Positions 17,548-28,336 of a stretch of 28,641 bases of DNA are shown piece by piece; the stretch's first letter is position 1, and each line of letters opens with the position of its first letter. Source of the DNA: a virus; the IMG/VR virus record IMGVR_UViG_3300024262_000190, positions 1 through 28,641 of that record; one strand, 5' to 3'. A program made the position numbers and the translations under genes. The notes below the pieces were generated by a model. It did not search any database. It was not told the origin of the DNA and was given only the letters and a program-made list of their open reading frames with translations.

Positions 17548-17958
17548 ATGGAATTAAATATTAGAAAATTAGAAGAAAGCGATTGGGACACTTTAGTGTC
17601 TTGGTGGTTAAAGTGGCGTTACTGGAAAGTAGCCCCACCAAAAGATTTTTTACCAGACAATGGAACTGGTGGGTTTATGGTTGAGAAAAACAACAAACCT
17701 ATAGTTTCAGGCTTTATGTATTTTACTAATTCTAAGGGCGTGTTATTGGAATGGATAGTATCTAATCCAGATTACAAAGATGATGACAGAAAAGAAGCGC
17801 TAGAGCTCTTAATATCAACAGCAGAAGACTTTATAAAGCAAGCTGGTAAGTCTTATATATTTAGCATTGGTAGAAATGCTAGTTTAATAGAAACTCACAA
17901 GAAATTAGGTTATTCAGTAGATGAAAAACCTTCTTACGAAATAATAAAAACAATTTAA
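17548..17958 (+). CDS. GNAT-family N-acetyltransferase-like protein
   Basis: A 136-residue protein with the size and order of secondary structure of a GNAT acyltransferase. It starts LNIRKLEESDWDTLVSWW (strand then helix), passes through a GGFMVEKNNKPIVSGFMYF hairpin, then a LLEWIVSNPDYKDDDRKEAL stretch where acetyl-CoA would bind, and finishes with SYIFSIGRNASLIETHKKLG, a typical late helix ending in an aromatic strand. The usual R/Q-x-x-G-x-G/A loop is degenerate here (DDDRKEA), so catalytic activity is not assured. It is tucked between nozzle and internal protein genes, six bases after one and one base before the other, so it is translated with virion proteins and may modify one of them or be packaged. 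Confidence 0.65.
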   Translation: MELNIRKLEESDWDTLVSWWLKWRYWKVAPPKDFLPDNGTGGFMVEKNNKPIVSGFMYFTNSKGVLLEWIVSNPDYKDDDRKEALELLISTAEDFIKQAGKSYIFSIGRNASLIETHKKLGYSVDEKPSYEIIKTI

Positions 17959-17959
17959 T

Positions 17960-18712
17960 ATGGCAGCAGTAACAGCAGCGGTCGCGGGTACCGTAGGTGG
18001 CGCGTTAGTAAAAGGCATTGGCGCGGGCAAAGCAGCAAAAAGAGCAGGCAGGAGAGCAAACGCCGCTCGTAAAGCTATTTCAGACCTTGAAGCAAATAGA
18101 CAAGACGTTATAAATCCTTTTGACAATATGGAAGGAGTGGCTGATATGGCAGAAAACCTAACAGGTATGATGTCTAATCCTATGGCTAATCTAGGCGTGG
18201 CAACACAAGCCGCGGAGATGCAAGCTGAAGAAGCAGACATAGCACTAGCAAATACTCTAGATACGTTAAGAGCTACAGGGGCAGGTGCTGGAGGGGCTAC
18301 AGCTTTAGCTCAAATGGCACTTAAGAGTAAACAAGGTATAAGTGCAAGTATTCAAACTCAAGAAGCTGCTAATCAAAAATTAAGAGCTCAAGGAGAGCAA
18401 AACCTACAACAAAGGCAGGTTGCTGAAGAGCAAAGGATTCAAGGCGTAGAAATGAACGACTCAATTAGGTTGCAAAACGCAGAGTCACAAGGTAGAGTAT
18501 TTGAATTTAACACACAAGAGAGTAGAGACAACACTAAACTTAGTAGACTGTATGGACAACAAGCAAACGCAGAAGCTAACGAAGCGCAAGCAAGGGCTTC
18601 AGGTGTAAATGCTTTAGCCGGAGGTTTAAGTGGGCTTGGTAGTTTAGGAATGAGTGGAATGTTAGGCGCATTACCAGACCAATTGCTGTATAAAACTCTG
18701 GTTGATTCATAA
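17960..18712 (+). CDS. Putative internal virion (ejection) protein, gp14-like
   Basis: A 250-residue Ala/Gln/Gly-rich protein. The first 22 residues (MAAVTAAVAGTVGGALVKGI) could insert in a membrane, followed by a basic segment (AAKRAGRRANAARKA). The centre (about 80-200) is helical and Gln/Glu-rich with coiled-coil character. A Gly/Leu/Ser/Met patch (ALAGGLSGLGSLGMSG) precedes the C-terminus. This composition and the place after the nozzle resemble T7 gp14, which is ejected ahead of the DNA and forms a pore in the outer membrane. Similarity is by composition and order, not by a motif. Its last 11 codons and stop (18678-18712) lie in the left arm of a perfect inverted repeat, so its C-terminal residues (QLLYKTLVDS) may have been acquired with that repeat. 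Confidence 0.6.
   Translation: MAAVTAAVAGTVGGALVKGIGAGKAAKRAGRRANAARKAISDLEANRQDVINPFDNMEGVADMAENLTGMMSNPMANLGVATQAAEMQAEEADIALANTLDTLRATGAGAGGATALAQMALKSKQGISASIQTQEAANQKLRAQGEQNLQQRQVAEEQRIQGVEMNDSIRLQNAESQGRVFEFNTQESRDNTKLSRLYGQQANAEANEAQARASGVNALAGGLSGLGSLGMSGMLGALPDQLLYKTLVDS
18678..18711. repeat. 34-base inverted repeat, left arm
   Basis: The reverse complement of this segment is identical to 20332-20365 over all 34 bases; the match ends at 18677 on one side and 18712 on the other. The arm covers the last 11 codons of the gp14-like gene and two of the three bases of its stop. The arms bracket 1620 bases with one gene. Possible explanations are a site for DNA inversion, a product of a past inversion or copying event, long-range RNA pairing, or an assembly or amplification chimera. 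Confidence 0.95.
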
Positions 18713-18731: not shown

Positions 18732-20323
18732 ATGGCAGAAGGATATCCAGTAACCCATTTGACGAAAGAGAGATACAATCTATTGCAGCTCCTTTTGTTA
18801 ATTTAGCAAACGCTTGGTCTAACAAACAAAACGCGCTTACGGCAAAGCAAAAAGCTATACGCAATAGAGAGGCTACAGCATATGAAAATGCTTACAAGCA
18901 ACTAGGTCAAATAGAAAGCGTTGATTACGCTACTTATGATGAGAACATGAGAAACTTCTTTGACGGTAAAGTTGATGACTATGTAAAAATAAAGAACAAT
19001 ATAGATTCAGGTGTTATAAACCCACAAGAAGGAGCTAGGTCACTAGCTTATATATCTAACATGATAGACGAATATAAAACCATAGCGCCAAAGGTTTTAG
19101 CTCAAGCTAAATTTATGATGGAAAACGGAGCTGGTGGTACTAATGAATTATCGAAACTAAATGATCCTAATTTAGAGATATTATTTTCTAAATTACTAGA
19201 AGGTTCTGGTGAGGTTACTTTAGCAGAAAACGAAAAAGGTAAAATGTATTTAAAAGGAGCTGGAAAAATAGATGGTCAAGACTGGAATTATGACCTAAAT
19301 TTAAGCGAGTTTGATAAAATAAACGCAAAAGGAGATAGTTTAGCTGTTACAACTATAAGTTTAGAAGACCTAGGCTTGAATGAAGTTTCTCAAGCAGCTA
19401 TAGCGGCTTCTACGCAAACCGAATTAAAAGAAAATAACACCAGCGTAGAGTACGTCAACGTTGATCAGGTTAGAACAAGTCTTAGTAACTCTTTTAGTAA
19501 TTCAATCGACGAGTTAATGAGAGGCGAATCATTTGCAAGTGTTTGGGCTGATCAAATCTACGAAAGCAAAACTGTAGACGAATTACGAGATGAAAACTTA
19601 CTATGGGATCCTGCTGATAAAGCTAAAGTTGAAAAAGCTAAAACTTGGTTGATTGATAAAGCTATAGAAACTCAAGTACCAATACAGAATCAAGTTCAGT
19701 TTTCACAAAGAGATGAAAATGGCCTTCCTGTTACCACGAGTGAAATTGAAGGAGTTGATGAAGTAAGCTCTACTTTTGGAGTGAAGCCAAAAGTAAAACA
19801 ACCTGATATAGACAAGGACAAAGATAGCGCTATTGAAACTTTTCAAATCTATTCTAGCGATCCTGTTGGTTCTTTTGAGTCAACGTTTCAAAAAGTAGGT
19901 GGCGCAAATGTTGACGGAAACGAAGTCAGTAGAAAAGGGAATATTATTACGGTAAAATACACTTACGATGGTGATGAAAAACCAACAATAACTAACTATG
20001 ATCTAGATAATAAAAAAGATTTTGAAAAATATTTTGAAAATCTTAGAATAAGCAAAGGAATGTTTGAAGGAACCGCTGTAGAAAGCCAAAACAAAAGACA
20101 GGATTTTACAGAAGAAGTTAAAAAACAGTTTGTTTTAAATAAAGCAAAGAAAAGAGCTCAAGCAGCTAAAAAAACAATAACTGATGATTTTTCGCCTGAA
20201 GATTTTGCGTCACGAAACGATATGAGCGGTATGAGCGATAATGAAAAAATGACCGCGTATAAAGAAGAGGTAGAAAAAAGAGTAAGAGAGCTTGAAGAAA
20301 TGGTCAACCAAAAAGTTAAATAA
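18732..20323 (+). CDS. Putative internal virion protein, apparent frameshift near the 5' end
   Basis: This encodes about 530 residues if repaired. The main frame is open from 18713 to the stop at 20321-20323, but its first ATG is at 18947. Upstream of that ATG it still reads as good protein (SNPFDEREIQSIAAPFVN, then LANAWSNKQNALTAKQKAIR). The only start there is ATG at 18732, in another frame, beginning MAEGYPVTH and running to a stop after 24 codons. One missing A near 18743 would join the two as MAEGISSNPFDERE. The protein is acidic to neutral, largely helical, with a basic coiled-coil C-terminus (KAKKRAQAAKKTI, then EKRVRELEEMVNQ) and no recognised domain. Its place corresponds to T7 gp15. 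The gene is bracketed by the 34-base inverted repeat. I see no slippery sequence for programmed frameshifting. Confidence 0.6.
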
Positions 20324-20331
20324 TATATATA

Positions 20332-20365
20332 TATGAATCAACCAGAGTTTTATACAGCAATTGGT
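20332..20365. repeat. 34-base inverted repeat, right arm
   Basis: This is identical to the reverse complement of 18678-18711. It covers the base before the ATG of the giant gene, the ATG itself and the following codons (MNQPEFYTAIG). It lies directly after an alternating AT run (20321-20332). In a transcript spanning both arms, this arm could pair with the left arm and hide the start codon. Confidence 0.95.
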
Positions 20366-23300
20366 TTTGATGAGCCTGTTGATGTAAATGAATTAAGTGA
20401 AGAAAATAGAAAATTCTTTTTTGAGCAGTTTTCACCAAAACCAGTAAAGCAAAACGATCCTGCTGTAAATGCGGAGGCCAATGTAGGATCGACAACAAGT
20501 ACGGCTTCAATATCGGGAAATGGTTCTTCGGAATTACAAGACGCTAAAAAGATTTACACAGAATCGTTATATAGCGAAGAAAAATTAACTATAGATGCAA
20601 TTGAAAAATACAACAAGTTGCAGGAAAACGTTTCAAACTTAACTACTAGAACAGAAGAAGGCGAACAAGTAGCTGAAGATATAATGGAAAGTGTAAACTC
20701 TTCTACAATTAATCCTAACGCGTCTAGAGCTGCAGAAGAATTTTTTGAGCCTATACAACAAGCGTTAGCTAAAATAAGTGGAGACATTTATACAATTGGT
20801 AGCAAGGCTGTAGATTATATATCAGACCCCACTAATATACCAGCATCAACACCACTTGCTGTTATTAACAAAGCATTTGATTATGAACCAAATGAAAAAA
20901 GTGATATTTTTGATGGAAAAAAAATAATAAAAGATTCAAAAGGAATAAAAGATTTTAATTTAATAAATGAAAATCAAAAAGAAGTCGCTATTAAAGCTTT
21001 AAAAGATCAAGGAAACACTGATATTACTAACGAACAGTGGATGAAGTATATAGAGGTGAATTCTAAAGACGAAGAGTTTAAAAATTCTGTTAAAGATATT
21101 TTTATAAAAGACTACGTAAAGCGAGGCCAAAAAGAAAAATTAATAGAAGACAACTGGAAAGACTCAAGTTGGGATGGTTTTTCAGAAGGATCCACACAAG
21201 ACACCAGAGAAGCAGCAGGTAAATTACTTTTAAGCAATTTAGACGATCAAGCAAAAAGCAATATAGCCACCTCAATTAGTCTAGACGCAAAAATAATAGA
21301 TGTACAAAATGAATTAAATTCTTTAAGAAGTTTAAGGCCTACGTCAAAAAAAGAAAGAGAATTGTTTATAACTTCTTTTACAGATCTTTCTAAAGAAAGA
21401 AAAGCACTCATAGATGCCTATGGAGACGTGGTTAATAGACAGATAAAAATAGGCGCGGAGTCTGAAGACATTAGAGGTTATATAGACACTGTTGGTAGAA
21501 ACCAAGGATGGCTAGTAAATCCTATAGGGGCTTTAGCTGGCGGTACTTATGATTTTATAGATGGTGTTGATGAGTTTATTGATAGAATGACTTACACGCC
21601 ATGGGAAATGGCAGGTGATTTAATAAAAGCAAACACAGATAAAGGTAATTGGCTTAACAAAGCCGTTATGGGCATGGAAGGTTTAGAAAAAACCAATATG
21701 GGTTTAGACACTGCTATAAACAACATGAGGGAAGGTTTAGCAGAGCCTATTAGTGTTGACGACATAGATAGTTGGTCAGATATGTGGAAGTGGAGTTCTC
21801 ACTTAGTTGGATCACAAGCCGCAAACACAGCGGTAATGCTAACGACTGGAGGATGGGCGTTACCTTTGCTAGGCGCTAGTTCTGCAGGCGCATCATTTAA
21901 TCAAATGCAAGAAGAAATAGATTTATATGGCGCAGAATACACGCCGCTTCAAATGTATACGGTAGCTCTTGGCACAGGTTTAGCAGAGGCTTTAAGTGAA
22001 AAAATAACACTAGGCCAATTAAATAGAATTAAAGATGGATTAAAAGCATCAAGAAATCTTAGCTTAAAAGTAGGTACTCGTGATTATATAAAGAATTTAT
22101 TTACAAAGCAGGGCGGTAAAAGAGTAGGCGCGCAAGGTTTTATTTATGGTAAGGAAACTTTTGAAGAAGGTTTTACAGAAGCTGTAGCTGGTTTTTCTCA
22201 AAGAGCTTTAGAAAGATACGTATTAGGAAAAGATACAGATTTATTTGACGGAATGAAGGATGAATTTATTTCCGGTGCTTTCATGAGTGGGTTTGTTTAC
22301 AAGTCTCCAGGTTTAGCCGTTAAAATGTATAGAGCATTTCAACCGGCGGATTCCAATGAAGCTATAGGTAAACTACAAACTAGAATGGCTGAAATAGGAA
22401 AGATACTTGAGGATAGTCCTTCTATGGATGGTAAAATTAGAGAAAAGTTAGAAAACGAATTGCAAGAAGGCGCTACTAAAGTTCAGCAAATAATGGCTAG
22501 GGATTTTAAGAACATGGACAAAATGACTCAACAAGAGCAAAATGACCTAATGTCTAAAGAAGATCAAATATACAAGCTTAGAGAACTTTACGATGCTACT
22601 CTTAATGATAACAATATAAATGAAAAAGATAGAAAGTCTATATTAAATACTTTAAACTCTGAATATAAATCTATAAGAAACGATAAAATTAAACTATTAG
22701 CAGAGGTAAATGTTAGAGAAGAAATAGCTTTAACGCAGAAGCTAGGTAAGGAAACTGGTAGAACTGATTTTGGTGACAGCGCTGTTGGAACAGGTTTAGC
22801 TGTTGAAGTTGTAGAAGATGATGCTGGGCTTGAAGCTTTAACTGGAAACACCCAAACAGGAGTTGAGGGTGTTGAGCTAGATAATGGTCAAATAATCCTT
22901 AACAAAGGTGAAATGTTAGCAGCTGCTATACGTAACGGTGGTAATATAGGAACTGGTATACACGAAATACTACACAAAGTATTAAAATCAGAATTTAGTA
23001 AAGACCCAGTTAAAGCTAAAAAACTAAAAGATCAATTCTTAAAAACATTAAAATCAGAAGATAAATCTCTTCATGCTGTAGTTATGGCTAGAGCAAAAGC
23101 TAATTATTCTGTTGAGTATTTAGTTTCAAACCCTGATGAATACTTAACTATATTAGCTAGTGTTTTAAAAGAAAACGAGGTAGAGTATAGCCAAGCTACT
23201 GATGGGGTTTTTAAAAAAATAGGTAATTTTTTATCTGGAATTTTTAGTGAAAAACTAGACGTAGACCCTAGTGATTTTAGTTTTAAAGACGGCCAAGATG

Positions 23301-26300
23301 CTTATAATTTTGTACAGAATTATGTAAAAAATACTTCAGAAGGTAAAATATCGGATAGAGCTAAGAAGCTAGCGGAAGCTGGTAAAGACATGAATACAGG
23401 TAATAAAATGTCCTTAAGCTCTAAAGACTCCGCGACAGTTAACAAGATTTATGAATTACAAGGCGAGGCTGGCTTAATGGACGTTGTTGATTTAATGAAA
23501 GATACAGCAGATGGCTTAGCTAGAGGTTTTAGAAATAGACCTAAGTATGAATCATTTAAAGAAATACTAGCTGACGAGATATTATCTGGCAAAAGAGGTA
23601 TTATGGAAGTTGCTATGGGTTACCCTGCTTATGTTAAAGAACAAAAAGCAAAAGGAGAAAAACTTGCCCCGCTTTCAGGTTATTTAAATAATTCATTTTC
23701 AACTAAAGCAGGATTTAAAAGATACATAGAGATAGCCGATAGAATTTTAGGTAAAGACGAACAAAGTAAATTTACGGAGCAAATAAAAGAAGAAGCTACG
23801 AGCATAATTGATTCAGAGGTTTCCACTGAAAAAGAAATTAAAGCAAAGCCAAAACCTAAATTAAGAAAAGACTTAAAACTACAAGACGATGTTATTGATA
23901 AAATTAAAAACGCTGTAGTAAAAACTTTTGGTACTAAACTACCCAACGTTAAATCACCTCAATTTAGAAAAGAATTAGAAAAACAATTTAGAACAGAGTT
24001 AAAATCTGTTATGGCTAAACTAATGGGTAGAACTGATTCTTATGAATCATTTTTAAGAGATAACTTTGAAGTTATATACGAAGCAATACCTCAAGAAGTA
24101 ATAAACAAAAGATTTAAAGATTTTTCTGATCCCGTAATGAAAAACGGTAAGCAAGTTAGAGAAAAAACAGCACAAGGCAACGCTATATTTAAGAAAAAGA
24201 AAATAGTTAAAGCTGAGTTTATAAAGTACTTTTTAGGCTCTAACGTAGGAAGATCCACTCAAGGAACTAGAAAAACTGCTTTAGCAGAAACCTTAGCTCA
24301 AGAGCTAGCTCTAGACGCTACTATGGAAGTTATTCAAAACCCTGGTGTGCTAGAAAAAGCTATTGCTATATCACAGTTAGTCGATGGTGATTTTACATTG
24401 GAAGGTGTATCGTTGAAAATTAAAAGACCTAAAGGCGTTAAATTTGCTATAAATAAAATAAATAGTCTCAACAACGCTATAGTTGAAGAACTTACTTTAG
24501 CTAACGCTTTTCAAAAAGGAAATTTTAATCCAGCTAAAGAGGCTGAAAAAGCTTTTAATAAAAGTATTGTGGATTACAATAAACTAATAATAGGTCTTGA
24601 CGTTGAGCCATTTGACATGGGCACGGGCAAAGGAAGAAAAGGATTTTTAGATTATGCTTATAGTAGTGGGTTAATTACTAAGCTTCCTAAGGTTTTCTTT
24701 AGAATGATGACAGGAACAACTGAAGACGCTGTTACAAAAGGTCAAAACATTGGTTCTAGGTCTAAATCACAGTCAGATACCGGTTATCAAATTTTAATAA
24801 ATGAGTCGAATGACGAAGGAGATATTGTATCAGTTGGTTATGACATAGAAACAGCTGATGGTAGCACTTTAAGAGATTTTGCTGGAAAATTACCGTTTAG
24901 AAATGTTACAGAAGTCGATGCTTGGATAAAACAAATCGAAGATGGCACGTATAAAATAGATGAAAAAACAATGCCTGCTAAGAAATTTGCAGACGTAAAC
25001 TCAATTAGCCCTAATATAATAGCCGCTTTATCTAGTACTAAGTATACTAAGATGAAGAAAAATAAAGAGCTTAGTTTTGATAGAATCAAAGAAAAAGATT
25101 TTCAAGCAGAACAAGATAAATCTATAGAAGGTCTTAAAGAGATATTTTTAATATTCCAACAAGCTATTAAAGATGACAAAAACGCAGTAGCGTGGGTTGG
25201 AGCTTTGCTTTCGTCTACTAGCTCAAATCAAGGTCACTTTATAAGAATCGCTGCCCCTATAAGATTTTTTACAGATAATTTAGATTTGATAGGTGGAGAA
25301 TTAAAATTAGTAGAAGAACATAGTTTACCTGCTTCTGCTACTGCAAAATATTTATTTGGCTTAGCTATAAACGGAACTGTAAACGATCATTTTGACAATA
25401 TTAAAGATAATTATTTTCAAGGAGTTTTAAACAAGATAGATGATGAAAAGTTAAAAGGTAGCATGCTTAATGGTGGGAAATATAACTACATTTCTGTTAT
25501 GCCAATGGGTTGGATGATAAATGATAGAACTTGGGCTAGATATTTTAATATAAATGTAGGTAACAATAATGGTGGTATTGATCCTGCTTCTATAATATGG
25601 CACGATGGTAAAAGTATTAAAGCTAAGTTTAATGTTAATTCCTACGGTTTTATAGCTAAAGGAAATACTATAAAAACAGAAAAAGAAGCTAAAAAAATAA
25701 ATAGTAAATTATCAAGAAATATACCTGAAAACGGTTCAATAAGCCAACAACTACAAGCAATATCTAACATAGATAAAACCATGAAGTCGGCTAGAAACAT
25801 TAATACTCCAGAAAAAGGAATTAGTGTTTTTGATTTTGATGACACACTTGCTAGAACTAATAGCAAAATAATTGTCACTATGCCTAATGGTAAGGTTCTA
25901 AAAATAAACGCTACAGAGTTTGCTAAGCGAGACGCTGAGCTAACTGATAAAGGCGCTAAATATGATTTTAGTGAATTTAGCAAAGTTGTTGATGGTAAAA
26001 AAGGACCATTAGCTGATCTTGCTTTAAAACGCCAAGGTAAGTTTGGAAGCAAAGATATATTTGTATTAACAGCTAGACCTCAGTTGGCTGCTAGAGCAAT
26101 TAAAAAGTTTCTAGACGGTATTGGGTTAAGTTTACCATTAGCTAATATTACTGGACTAGAAAACGGCACTCCACAAGCCAAGGCTGACTGGGTATTGTCT
26201 AAAACTGCCGCCGGTTATAATAACTTTTACTTTGCTGATGACGCAATAAAAAACGTTAAAGCTGTAAAAGAAATATTAGATCAAGTAGATGTTAAATCTA

Positions 26301-28336
26301 AAGTACAACAAGCCAAATTTAGTAAAAATCAAAGACTAAACGATCAGTTTAATCAGATAGTAGAAGATTCTACTGGGCTCGAGTCTTATAAAAGTTTCTC
26401 TAACGCAAGAGCTAAAACTATAGGAAGAAGTAAGAGCTCTGGTTGGTTCATACCACCACAAGCTGAAGATTTTGTAGGTTTATTATACCCTTTGTTAGGT
26501 AAAGGAAAAGCCGGTGATAGAGCTATGCAGTTTTTTAAAGAAAACTTATTAGATCCTTTTAATAAAGCAGAGAACGCTTTGACTCAAGCTAAAATTTCTG
26601 TTGCTAATGATTTTAAAGTACTTAAAAAGCAATTCAAAAGTATACCTAAAACGCTTAAGAAAGAAGCTATGGACGGTTTTACTTACGGTGATGCTTTAAG
26701 GGTTTATATATGGTCTCAGCAAGGCATGGAAGTGCCTGGTTTGTCTAAAAGAGATTTAATAGAGCTTAATTCGTTTATAGAAAACGATTCAGACTTAAGG
26801 AATTTTGCTCAAGGTCTTCAAATGATACAGAAAAATAGAATATACCCTAAGCCAGATGAAAGCTGGTTAGCGGGTACAATAACTACAGACATCATAGGGG
26901 GTATAAACGATGTTGTTAGATCTGAATATTTGCAAGACTGGCAACAGAATATAGACATTATATTTTCTGTTGAAAATTTAAATAAACTAGAAGCTGCTTA
27001 TGGCGCAAACTACAGAGAAGCTTTAGAGAATATTATATCCAGAATGAAAACTGGTAGCAATAGACAAAAAAGTAGTAGTAGAGTTATAAACGAAATAACT
27101 GATTGGTTAAATAATTCGGTTGGGGCTATTATGTTCTTCAACACTAGATCAGCTGTGCTTCAAACTATATCTGCAATAAACTTTGTAAACTACGGAGACA
27201 ACAATATACTTAAAGCTGGTTTAGCATTTGCAAACCAACCACAGTTTTGGAAAGACTTTAACAGATTGTTTAATTCTGAATACTTAGTAGCTAGACGTAA
27301 TGGTTTAAAAATAAATGTTAATGAATCTGAAATTGCTGACGCTGTTAGGGATTCTAAAAACAAACCTAAAGCAGCTATAGCTTATTTACTTAAAAAAGGT
27401 TTTCTGCCTACACAAATAGCGGATAGTTTTGCTATTGCTTCTGGTGGGGCTACTTTTTATAGAAATAGAATAAACACTTATTTAAAACAAGGTCTAACAC
27501 AACAAGAGGCTGAGGAGAAAGCTTTTGAAGATTTCTATGCTATATCAGAAGAAACTCAACAGTCTAGTAGAACAGATCGTATAAGCCAAGAACAAGCTAG
27601 TATTGCTGGTCGTGTTATTCTTGCTTTTGCAAACACACCACAACAATATGCTAGAAGATCTAAAAAAGATTTCTTAGATTTAGTAAACGGAAGAGGTGGA
27701 CCAGGTGCTTGGAAAGGGCAAATAGGTAGAATAATATACTATCAAGGGGCTCAAAACTTATTGTTTAACGCTTTACAAAACGCGTTGTTTGCTATGTTGT
27801 TTGATGATGATGAAGATGAGCCTCAAGACAAATCACTAAGAATAGCCAACGGAATGGCTGATTCTACTTTGAGAGGTATGGGTATTTATGGAGCAGCAGG
27901 CGCTACTCTTAAAAACATACTAATGAAATTGTATATCGAAAGCGAAAAGAAAAATCCTAAATATGAAGACGCGGCTTTAGAAATGTTAAGTTTTTCTCCA
28001 CCGCTAGATTCTAAAGTTACTAAGTTTAGATCTGCTTTAAGAACGTTTAATTGGGACGCAAAAGAAATCCGCGAAAAAGGTTTTAGTTTAGATAACCCTG
28101 CTTTAATGGCGGGTGGACAAGTGCTTTCAGCATTTACAAACATTCCACTAGATAGAGTTATAAGAAAATACAATAACTTAGACAAAGCTTTTGAACAAGA
28201 GACTGAAACATGGGAAAGTGTTGCTTTAACACTAGGTTGGTCTGAGTGGGAAATAATGGGACCAGACAAAAAGAAAACTACTACCACTATTAAAAAATCA
28301 ACTGGTAGCAAAAAACGTAAAAAAAGAAAACAATAA
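20333..28336 (+). CDS. Giant multidomain virion protein with metallopeptidase-like and HAD phosphatase domains
   Basis: A 2667-residue protein, the largest here, at the end of the ejection-protein series (T7 gp16 position). Residues 495-660 hold glycine-rich, partly hydrophobic helices (LPLLGASSAGASFNQMQEE, FEEGFTEAVAGFSQRALE). A zinc-peptidase motif HEILH lies at 877-881 with a possible third ligand, Glu936, in NPDEYL. A HAD phosphatase follows with its four signatures: DFDDT at 1834-1838 (Asp1834, Asp1836), Thr1913 in LTAR, Lys1950 and FADDA with Asp1969/Asp1970. After KFS at 1995-1997 the C-terminal 670 residues are helical, with NTRSAVLQTISAINF near 2270, an acidic DDDEDEP near 2490 and a basic tail (GSKKRKKRKQ). 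It resembles phage large polyvalent proteins, thought to be injected with DNA. No lytic transglycosylase motif was recognised. Confidence 0.75.
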   Translation: MNQPEFYTAIGFDEPVDVNELSEENRKFFFEQFSPKPVKQNDPAVNAEANVGSTTSTASISGNGSSELQDAKKIYTESLYSEEKLTIDAIEKYNKLQENVSNLTTRTEEGEQVAEDIMESVNSSTINPNASRAAEEFFEPIQQALAKISGDIYTIGSKAVDYISDPTNIPASTPLAVINKAFDYEPNEKSDIFDGKKIIKDSKGIKDFNLINENQKEVAIKALKDQGNTDITNEQWMKYIEVNSKDEEFKNSVKDIFIKDYVKRGQKEKLIEDNWKDSSWDGFSEGSTQDTREAAGKLLLSNLDDQAKSNIATSISLDAKIIDVQNELNSLRSLRPTSKKERELFITSFTDLSKERKALIDAYGDVVNRQIKIGAESEDIRGYIDTVGRNQGWLVNPIGALAGGTYDFIDGVDEFIDRMTYTPWEMAGDLIKANTDKGNWLNKAVMGMEGLEKTNMGLDTAINNMREGLAEPISVDDIDSWSDMWKWSSHLVGSQAANTAVMLTTGGWALPLLGASSAGASFNQMQEEIDLYGAEYTPLQMYTVALGTGLAEALSEKITLGQLNRIKDGLKASRNLSLKVGTRDYIKNLFTKQGGKRVGAQGFIYGKETFEEGFTEAVAGFSQRALERYVLGKDTDLFDGMKDEFISGAFMSGFVYKSPGLAVKMYRAFQPADSNEAIGKLQTRMAEIGKILEDSPSMDGKIREKLENELQEGATKVQQIMARDFKNMDKMTQQEQNDLMSKEDQIYKLRELYDATLNDNNINEKDRKSILNTLNSEYKSIRNDKIKLLAEVNVREEIALTQKLGKETGRTDFGDSAVGTGLAVEVVEDDAGLEALTGNTQTGVEGVELDNGQIILNKGEMLAAAIRNGGNIGTGIHEILHKVLKSEFSKDPVKAKKLKDQFLKTLKSEDKSLHAVVMARAKANYSVEYLVSNPDEYLTILASVLKENEVEYSQATDGVFKKIGNFLSGIFSEKLDVDPSDFSFKDGQDAYNFVQNYVKNTSEGKISDRAKKLAEAGKDMNTGNKMSLSSKDSATVNKIYELQGEAGLMDVVDLMKDTADGLARGFRNRPKYESFKEILADEILSGKRGIMEVAMGYPAYVKEQKAKGEKLAPLSGYLNNSFSTKAGFKRYIEIADRILGKDEQSKFTEQIKEEATSIIDSEVSTEKEIKAKPKPKLRKDLKLQDDVIDKIKNAVVKTFGTKLPNVKSPQFRKELEKQFRTELKSVMAKLMGRTDSYESFLRDNFEVIYEAIPQEVINKRFKDFSDPVMKNGKQVREKTAQGNAIFKKKKIVKAEFIKYFLGSNVGRSTQGTRKTALAETLAQELALDATMEVIQNPGVLEKAIAISQLVDGDFTLEGVSLKIKRPKGVKFAINKINSLNNAIVEELTLANAFQKGNFNPAKEAEKAFNKSIVDYNKLIIGLDVEPFDMGTGKGRKGFLDYAYSSGLITKLPKVFFRMMTGTTEDAVTKGQNIGSRSKSQSDTGYQILINESNDEGDIVSVGYDIETADGSTLRDFAGKLPFRNVTEVDAWIKQIEDGTYKIDEKTMPAKKFADVNSISPNIIAALSSTKYTKMKKNKELSFDRIKEKDFQAEQDKSIEGLKEIFLIFQQAIKDDKNAVAWVGALLSSTSSNQGHFIRIAAPIRFFTDNLDLIGGELKLVEEHSLPASATAKYLFGLAINGTVNDHFDNIKDNYFQGVLNKIDDEKLKGSMLNGGKYNYISVMPMGWMINDRTWARYFNINVGNNNGGIDPASIIWHDGKSIKAKFNVNSYGFIAKGNTIKTEKEAKKINSKLSRNIPENGSISQQLQAISNIDKTMKSARNINTPEKGISVFDFDDTLARTNSKIIVTMPNGKVLKINATEFAKRDAELTDKGAKYDFSEFSKVVDGKKGPLADLALKRQGKFGSKDIFVLTARPQLAARAIKKFLDGIGLSLPLANITGLENGTPQAKADWVLSKTAAGYNNFYFADDAIKNVKAVKEILDQVDVKSKVQQAKFSKNQRLNDQFNQIVEDSTGLESYKSFSNARAKTIGRSKSSGWFIPPQAEDFVGLLYPLLGKGKAGDRAMQFFKENLLDPFNKAENALTQAKISVANDFKVLKKQFKSIPKTLKKEAMDGFTYGDALRVYIWSQQGMEVPGLSKRDLIELNSFIENDSDLRNFAQGLQMIQKNRIYPKPDESWLAGTITTDIIGGINDVVRSEYLQDWQQNIDIIFSVENLNKLEAAYGANYREALENIISRMKTGSNRQKSSSRVINEITDWLNNSVGAIMFFNTRSAVLQTISAINFVNYGDNNILKAGLAFANQPQFWKDFNRLFNSEYLVARRNGLKINVNESEIADAVRDSKNKPKAAIAYLLKKGFLPTQIADSFAIASGGATFYRNRINTYLKQGLTQQEAEEKAFEDFYAISEETQQSSRTDRISQEQASIAGRVILAFANTPQQYARRSKKDFLDLVNGRGGPGAWKGQIGRIIYYQGAQNLLFNALQNALFAMLFDDDEDEPQDKSLRIANGMADSTLRGMGIYGAAGATLKNILMKLYIESEKKNPKYEDAALEMLSFSPPLDSKVTKFRSALRTFNWDAKEIREKGFSLDNPALMAGGQVLSAFTNIPLDRVIRKYNNLDKAFEQETETWESVALTLGWSEWEIMGPDKKKTTTTIKKSTGSKKRKKRKQ

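Follow-up and report, generated by a model that had tools for sequence, protein, structure and literature searches.

What does a very large protein with two unrelated enzyme signatures do at the end of a phage's structural genes? The question is raised by the IMG/VR record IMGVR_UViG_3300024262_000190, a metagenomic record of a marine virus of bacteria whose 28,641 nucleotides (28.6 kb; hereafter the window) hold a podovirus late module: a GroES-like protein, the terminase, the portal, virion proteins and finally a gene for a protein of 2667 residues, in the order terL-portal-capsid...giant. The gene for this giant (20333..28336; window coordinates joined by two dots are on the + strand) has an ATG start and stands last among the complete genes of the late module. 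An earlier note on this DNA described the product as combining an HExxH peptidase motif with a full haloacid dehalogenase (HAD) phosphatase signature, a description confirmed by the motif positions and by their conservation in relatives, of which 113 were found in IMG/VR and the loci of 80 were taken for comparison. The whole giant has no match above cut-off in Pfam or PHROGs, neither the giant nor its HAD domain found a match in cultured phages by tblastn, and PDB profile searches with the giant segments A2-A4, A7 and A8 gave nothing significant.

The sequence comparisons point, with a probability of about 0.7, to a polyvalent, ejected virion protein of the type of the virion RNA polymerase (vRNAP) of phage N4 that carries other cargo and belongs to a podovirus with cultured relatives among flavobacterial phages. 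The terminase encoded in the window is 62% identical to that of the freshwater podovirus MW202828 and 44% identical to those of the Flavobacterium elemo phages; other than the environmental MW202828, every terminase match is to a phage of Flavobacteriaceae. The start codon of the giant lacks a Shine-Dalgarno-like sequence (20323-20335) and is preceded by a TATATATATATATG run. A missing Shine-Dalgarno sequence would suit a Bacteroidota host.

The two enzyme domains

The zincin-like metallopeptidase domain (residues ~795-1010; 22715..23362) is recognized by conservation and by an AlphaFold model, together with matches to homologous domains. HEILH at residues 877-881 (22961..22975) is the sole HExxH of the giant, and 0.0017 such motifs per protein are predicted from composition. 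All 49 aligned giants (those with a detectable homologous region, the window's own copy counted) share H877, E878, H881 and E936, while the intervening residues of the motif vary freely (HEVLH, HEFIH, HELGH, HEKGH and others) and the spacer is also very variable. Because Glu936 (23138..23140) is identical in 49/49, this residue, earlier only a possible ligand, is now well supported as the probable third zinc ligand. Model A (residues 775-1815, 46 sequences, mean predicted local distance difference test score (pLDDT) 76) contains a helix at 2-33, strands at 50-53, 72-74 and 80-83, the HExxH helix at 100-115 and the E936 helix at 161-173 (model numbering). HEILH is accordingly placed in a helix after three strands with E936 in a later helix, which agrees with the published zincin order as judged from secondary-structure order only, and the predicted arrangement of the four residues appears zincin-like. 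Among the Pfam matches below threshold were zincins (M90 at 0.032 for the window and 1.6e-4 for the best member, M78 and SprT-like). Hidden Markov model (HMM) searches with the domain matched elemo gp18 (6.5e-12) as well as the giant of MW202828 (2.8e-9).

Further HExxH motifs occur elsewhere among the relatives. An additional HEKQH lies after the helical core, near the C-terminus, in loci L064, L065, L067, L073 and L074. The giant of MW202828 (L084:741-12320, P0002; 3859 aa) has two HEFGH sites; its record name, reticulocyte binding/rhoptry protein, is unlikely to be correct.

The HAD-superfamily phosphatase domain (residues ~1815-2003; 25775..26341) is recognized by motif conservation, an AlphaFold model, PDB fold matches and PHROG matches. 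Motif I is DFDDT (residues 1834-1838; 25832..25846), motif II VLTAR (1911-1915; 26063..26077), motif III Lys1950 (26180..26182) and motif IV Asp1969-Asp1970 (26237..26242), within the strings FDFDDT, VLTAR, AKADWV and FADDAIKN that start at 1833, 1911, 1949 and 1967. The four motifs stand in the expected order (DxD, T/S, K, DD), and D1834, D1836, T1838, T1913, R1915, K1950, D1969 and D1970 are invariant in alignments of 35 and 38 sequences, as is A1914 of motif II; N1974 is kept in at least 90% of the aligned sequences. The invariance of these motifs, together with that of the zincin residues amid varying surroundings, indicates that the patterns are not due to chance. Model B (residues 1808-2667, 38 sequences, mean pLDDT 73) shows a Rossmann-like domain in which the motifs fall on consecutive strands (22-27, 102-106, 132-134 and 157-161), followed by an all-helical region. 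Both structural tests proposed in the earlier note, for HEILH and for the HAD motifs, were therefore passed in the models. The first-ranked PDB fold match of model B is the HAD effector Ceg4 (probability 0.99), with further HAD proteins lower down the list (HAD matches 6aok 0.99, 9jz1 0.95, 1zjj 0.87); owing to the length of the query the E-values are weak. Since the catalytic residues of both domains are kept in relatives, both are probably working enzymes, delivered, as the comparisons below suggest, at the start of infection.

The ejection-type domain and known systems

Residues ~480-800 (21770..22732) form an N-terminal domain of ejection or membrane type with a hydrophobic peak at 495-520 and an ETFEEG motif near residue 607. 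HMM searches with this domain matched elemo gp18 (5e-77), Cellulophaga phi38:1 gp101 (3.5e-44) and phi46:3 gp120 (3e-34). Both elemo gp18 and phi38:1 gp101 are annotated as structural and are encoded last in the structural cassette, and the giant or its homolog is likewise the last gene of that cassette in MW202828, the elemo phages and phi38:1. These flavophage giants (gp101, gp18 and UOF82488 of MW202828) are thus syntenic with the giant; gp101 and gp18 share its 480-800 domain, and gp18 and UOF82488 its zincin. They differ in size (1691-3859 aa) and in that no HAD was detected in them, no zincin was detected in gp101 and elemo gp18 has a DUF3293 domain.

Profiles of N4-like vRNAPs were compared with segments of the giant in 30 pairwise hhalign comparisons. 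The two best were collinear pairs, the N-terminal domain (probability 85.7, E 5.5e-6; spanning N4 residues about 385-540) and, weakly, the zincin (probability 41.6, E 2.7e-4); the remaining 28 gave probabilities below 3. No region of the giant matches the N4 RNA polymerase profile (probability <2). In N4, gp50 consists of an N-terminal domain with membrane helices, the RNA polymerase, an HExxH-bearing C1 and a helical C2; the protein is expelled into the cell and its N-terminal domain enters membranes (PMC12633501). The giant resembles this vRNAP (gp50, Schitoviridae) in being very large, in being encoded by the terminal gene of a late cassette, in its homologous N-terminal domain, and in having an HExxH domain and, towards the C-terminus, an extensive helical region. 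It differs in that the N4 protein has 3500 aa and a polymerase, whereas the giant has 2667 aa, no RNA polymerase domain, and a HAD and extra domains between the zincin and a C-terminal core that is not similar in sequence. The placement of the giant as an ejection protein in the earlier note therefore holds as regards its position in the late module, its homology to structural proteins and its match to the N-terminal profile of the N4 vRNAP; its presence in the virion and its entry into the cell are predicted.

The giant also resembles the large polyvalent proteins (Iyer et al. 2017, PMC5512222), in which several unrelated enzyme domains, with a zincin as hub, share one late-gene polypeptide: its zincin and HAD are unrelated chemistries in a single late-gene product. 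Its C-terminal fold is common to proteins annotated as polyvalent. Model B has strong matches in BFVD to unnamed viral proteins, matches (E ~5e-8 to 5e-5) to entries whose name is ART-PolyVal or large polyvalent protein, and a match to a 'structural protein' of Tenacibaculum phage Gundel_1. It differs from the polyvalent proteins in that no LPD or MPTase-PolyVal HMM reached threshold. A word search of the main text of the 2017 survey, whose supplementary domain list was outside its scope, did not find a haloacid-dehalogenase domain (PMC5512222), and no paper combining the terms was found in the collection of papers searched. Apparently new here are a HAD and a zincin on an N4-like chassis without a polymerase and, in relatives, a kinase embedded within the HAD.

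Proposed mechanism and alternatives

The giant would be built on a chassis like that of the N4 vRNAP, with a membrane or ejection domain at the N-terminus, a central zincin-like peptidase and an extensive helical part at the C-terminus, and would carry other cargo, the HAD phosphatase among it, in place of the polymerase. The likeliest course is that the capsid carries it, that it exits alongside the DNA by way of the tail, and that it acts in the cell before phage gene expression. Early delivery of polyvalent proteins with zincins is an established theme, and self-processing and injection are published themes for such proteins (PMC5512222). The preferred role of the zincin is to cut the giant into functional pieces, at assembly or after entry, with host proteins as second choice. 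The HAD would dephosphorylate a nucleic-acid, nucleotide or protein substrate in the host; of these, nucleic-acid ends or nucleotides are the preferred candidates, given the polynucleotide kinase (PNK)-type kinase nested in the same HAD in relatives and the matches to phrog_415.

Several observations weigh against this reading. The record is a fragment, and the 'structural' labels of the relatives are database annotations. Model A, a long multidomain query, had no significant zincin fold match in the PDB. The C-terminal homology to N4 C2 that had been suspected by eye was not confirmed by hhalign (probability 0.3), the two regions being alike only in that they are helical. The LPD38 HMM (PF18857) had no match in 8 records; it had none in the control genomes either, and LPD38 is optional, not defining. 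HExxH is absent from four apparently complete giants (L032, L049, L050 and L079) and HAD from 18, so neither enzyme is indispensable. The N4 vRNAP, although it has a zincin of its own, is packaged without being cut (PMC5512222), which weakens self-cleavage; any processing of the giant may follow entry.

The cargo varies among the relatives. On a tree of the C-terminal core the presence of HAD requires at least five changes, four of them forced by well-supported branches. In 18 relatives (L028:14441-15601; L022, L027, L030, L031, L033, L035-L040, L047, L053, L056, L058, L072 and L077) the HAD holds, just after motif I, a nested P-loop kinase of about 170 aa that is of PNK/zeta type; the insertion site is the beta-hairpin right after that motif, where smaller inserts also occur, and two changes on the core tree, and so two origins, are required. 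The nested kinase matches AAA_33 (6.8e-13), Zeta_toxin (6e-13) and phrog_505 polynucleotide kinase. These relatives resemble the PNKP-type end-healing enzymes (T4 Pnk and eukaryotic PNKP) in having a HAD phosphatase and a P-loop kinase in one polypeptide, but their kinase is nested inside the HAD and not in tandem with it.

A narrower form of the proposed mechanism, compatible with it, is that the HAD is a polynucleotide 3'-phosphatase that heals ends, protecting or repairing nucleic acids cut by host defence after entry. The nested kinase suggests this, as do the matches of phrog_415 'polynucleotide kinase' to 32 of 35 kinase-free HAD domains (E 0.0013 for the window) and the weak PDB profile matches of the HAD to bacterial Pnkp. 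However, the window giant itself has no P-loop kinase, the nested kinases also match zeta-toxin-type kinases, their Walker A Ser/Thr is replaced by Gly in about half of them, and the top fold match of the domain is the effector Ceg4. No RNA ligase was found in the kinase-bearing contigs, and ligase matches are also present in contigs without the kinase. End-healing is accordingly a tentative assignment. A role in tRNA repair was rejected, as neither RNA ligase nor tRNA genes were found tied to the nested kinase. The one ligase match that was read, found by the RNA_ligase model in the contig of a relative (L114:1195-2046), looks like an ATP-dependent DNA ligase.

Also compatible with ejection, though less favoured, is a zincin that acts as an effector on host proteins and not on the giant itself. 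The cutting of host proteins by zincins is a published alternative for polyvalent proteins (PMC5512222), and the uncut state of the N4 vRNAP in the virion would agree with it. The zincin is, however, near-universal while other cargo varies, and a housekeeping role in processing fits this better.

It is unlikely that the enzyme-like domains are only structural or serve assembly, the giant then being a tail, core or scaffold-like component with no action in the host and with a zincin that is at most a maturation protease during assembly. The chassis does work without these domains, as phi38:1 gp101 (1691 aa) has the 480-800 domain and no zincin or HAD match, and the zincin region of N4 is required for encapsidation (PMC5512222). 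Invariant catalytic residues and the gain and loss of the HAD as a cassette would nevertheless be odd for a structural part, and the N-terminal domain matches that of an ejected protein. That the giant is a non-virion enzyme made during infection and merely adjoining the structural genes is very improbable, given that it shares homology both with proteins annotated as structural and with the N-terminal region of the N4 vRNAP, and that its place at the end of the cassette is conserved.

Remaining regions, neighbouring genes and implications

The earlier note had left residues about 1030-1830 and 2000-2667 as unrecognized. The second stretch is in fact the universal core of the family: the all-helical C-terminal core (residues ~2004-2667; 26342..28333), which ends in a lysine-rich tail and is helical in the model, comprises about 650 helical residues and was found in all 81 giants compared. 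At L060:8339-14534 the giant is present as two overlapping open reading frames (1337 and 737 aa), the second of which is the C-terminal core; the split is a frameshift, an assembly error or real. The first stretch still has no family or PDB match, but part of it is a conserved domain. Residues ~1011-1559 (23363..25009) are mostly helical, with a pLDDT of mostly 80-95 in model A and low-confidence linkers, and have no family and no significant match in the PDB profile search. Residues ~1560-1800 (25010..25732) form an alpha/beta domain with a near-invariant E1662-H1663-x-x-P and neither a family match nor a PDB profile match. E1662-H1663 (25316-25321) may mark a third enzyme or a binding domain.

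Upstream of the giant, an Ala/Gly-rich protein of 250 aa (17960..18712) is kept in the family (77 rows in the family profile) and is possibly a component of an ejection channel. The 458-aa protein immediately upstream of the giant (18947..20323) is poorly conserved (4 rows in the family profile) and may, from its position, be a member of the ejection cassette. Homology of these two proteins to N4 gp51 and gp52 is not supported, as profile comparison gave no match. A 136-aa protein (phrog_17252; 17548-17958) within the structural cassette reads like a GNAT acetyltransferase.

A tentative generalization is that the family, like the N4 vRNAP to which it is related, serves as a general chassis for cargo in which the ejection domain, the zincin and the helical core stay and the enzyme is exchanged (a polymerase in N4, a HAD with or without a nested kinase here), so that what these marine phages inject at entry is not a polymerase but an enzyme for end-healing or phosphate editing. 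The cultured relatives (the elemo phages and Cellulophaga phi38:1) put ejection of the chassis within experimental reach. If the giant is ejected and active, the architecture of the N4 vRNAP would be a single example of a broader type of delivery chassis with exchangeable cargo, and some marine phages would bring a phosphatase, with or without a nested kinase, into the cell ahead of phage gene expression.

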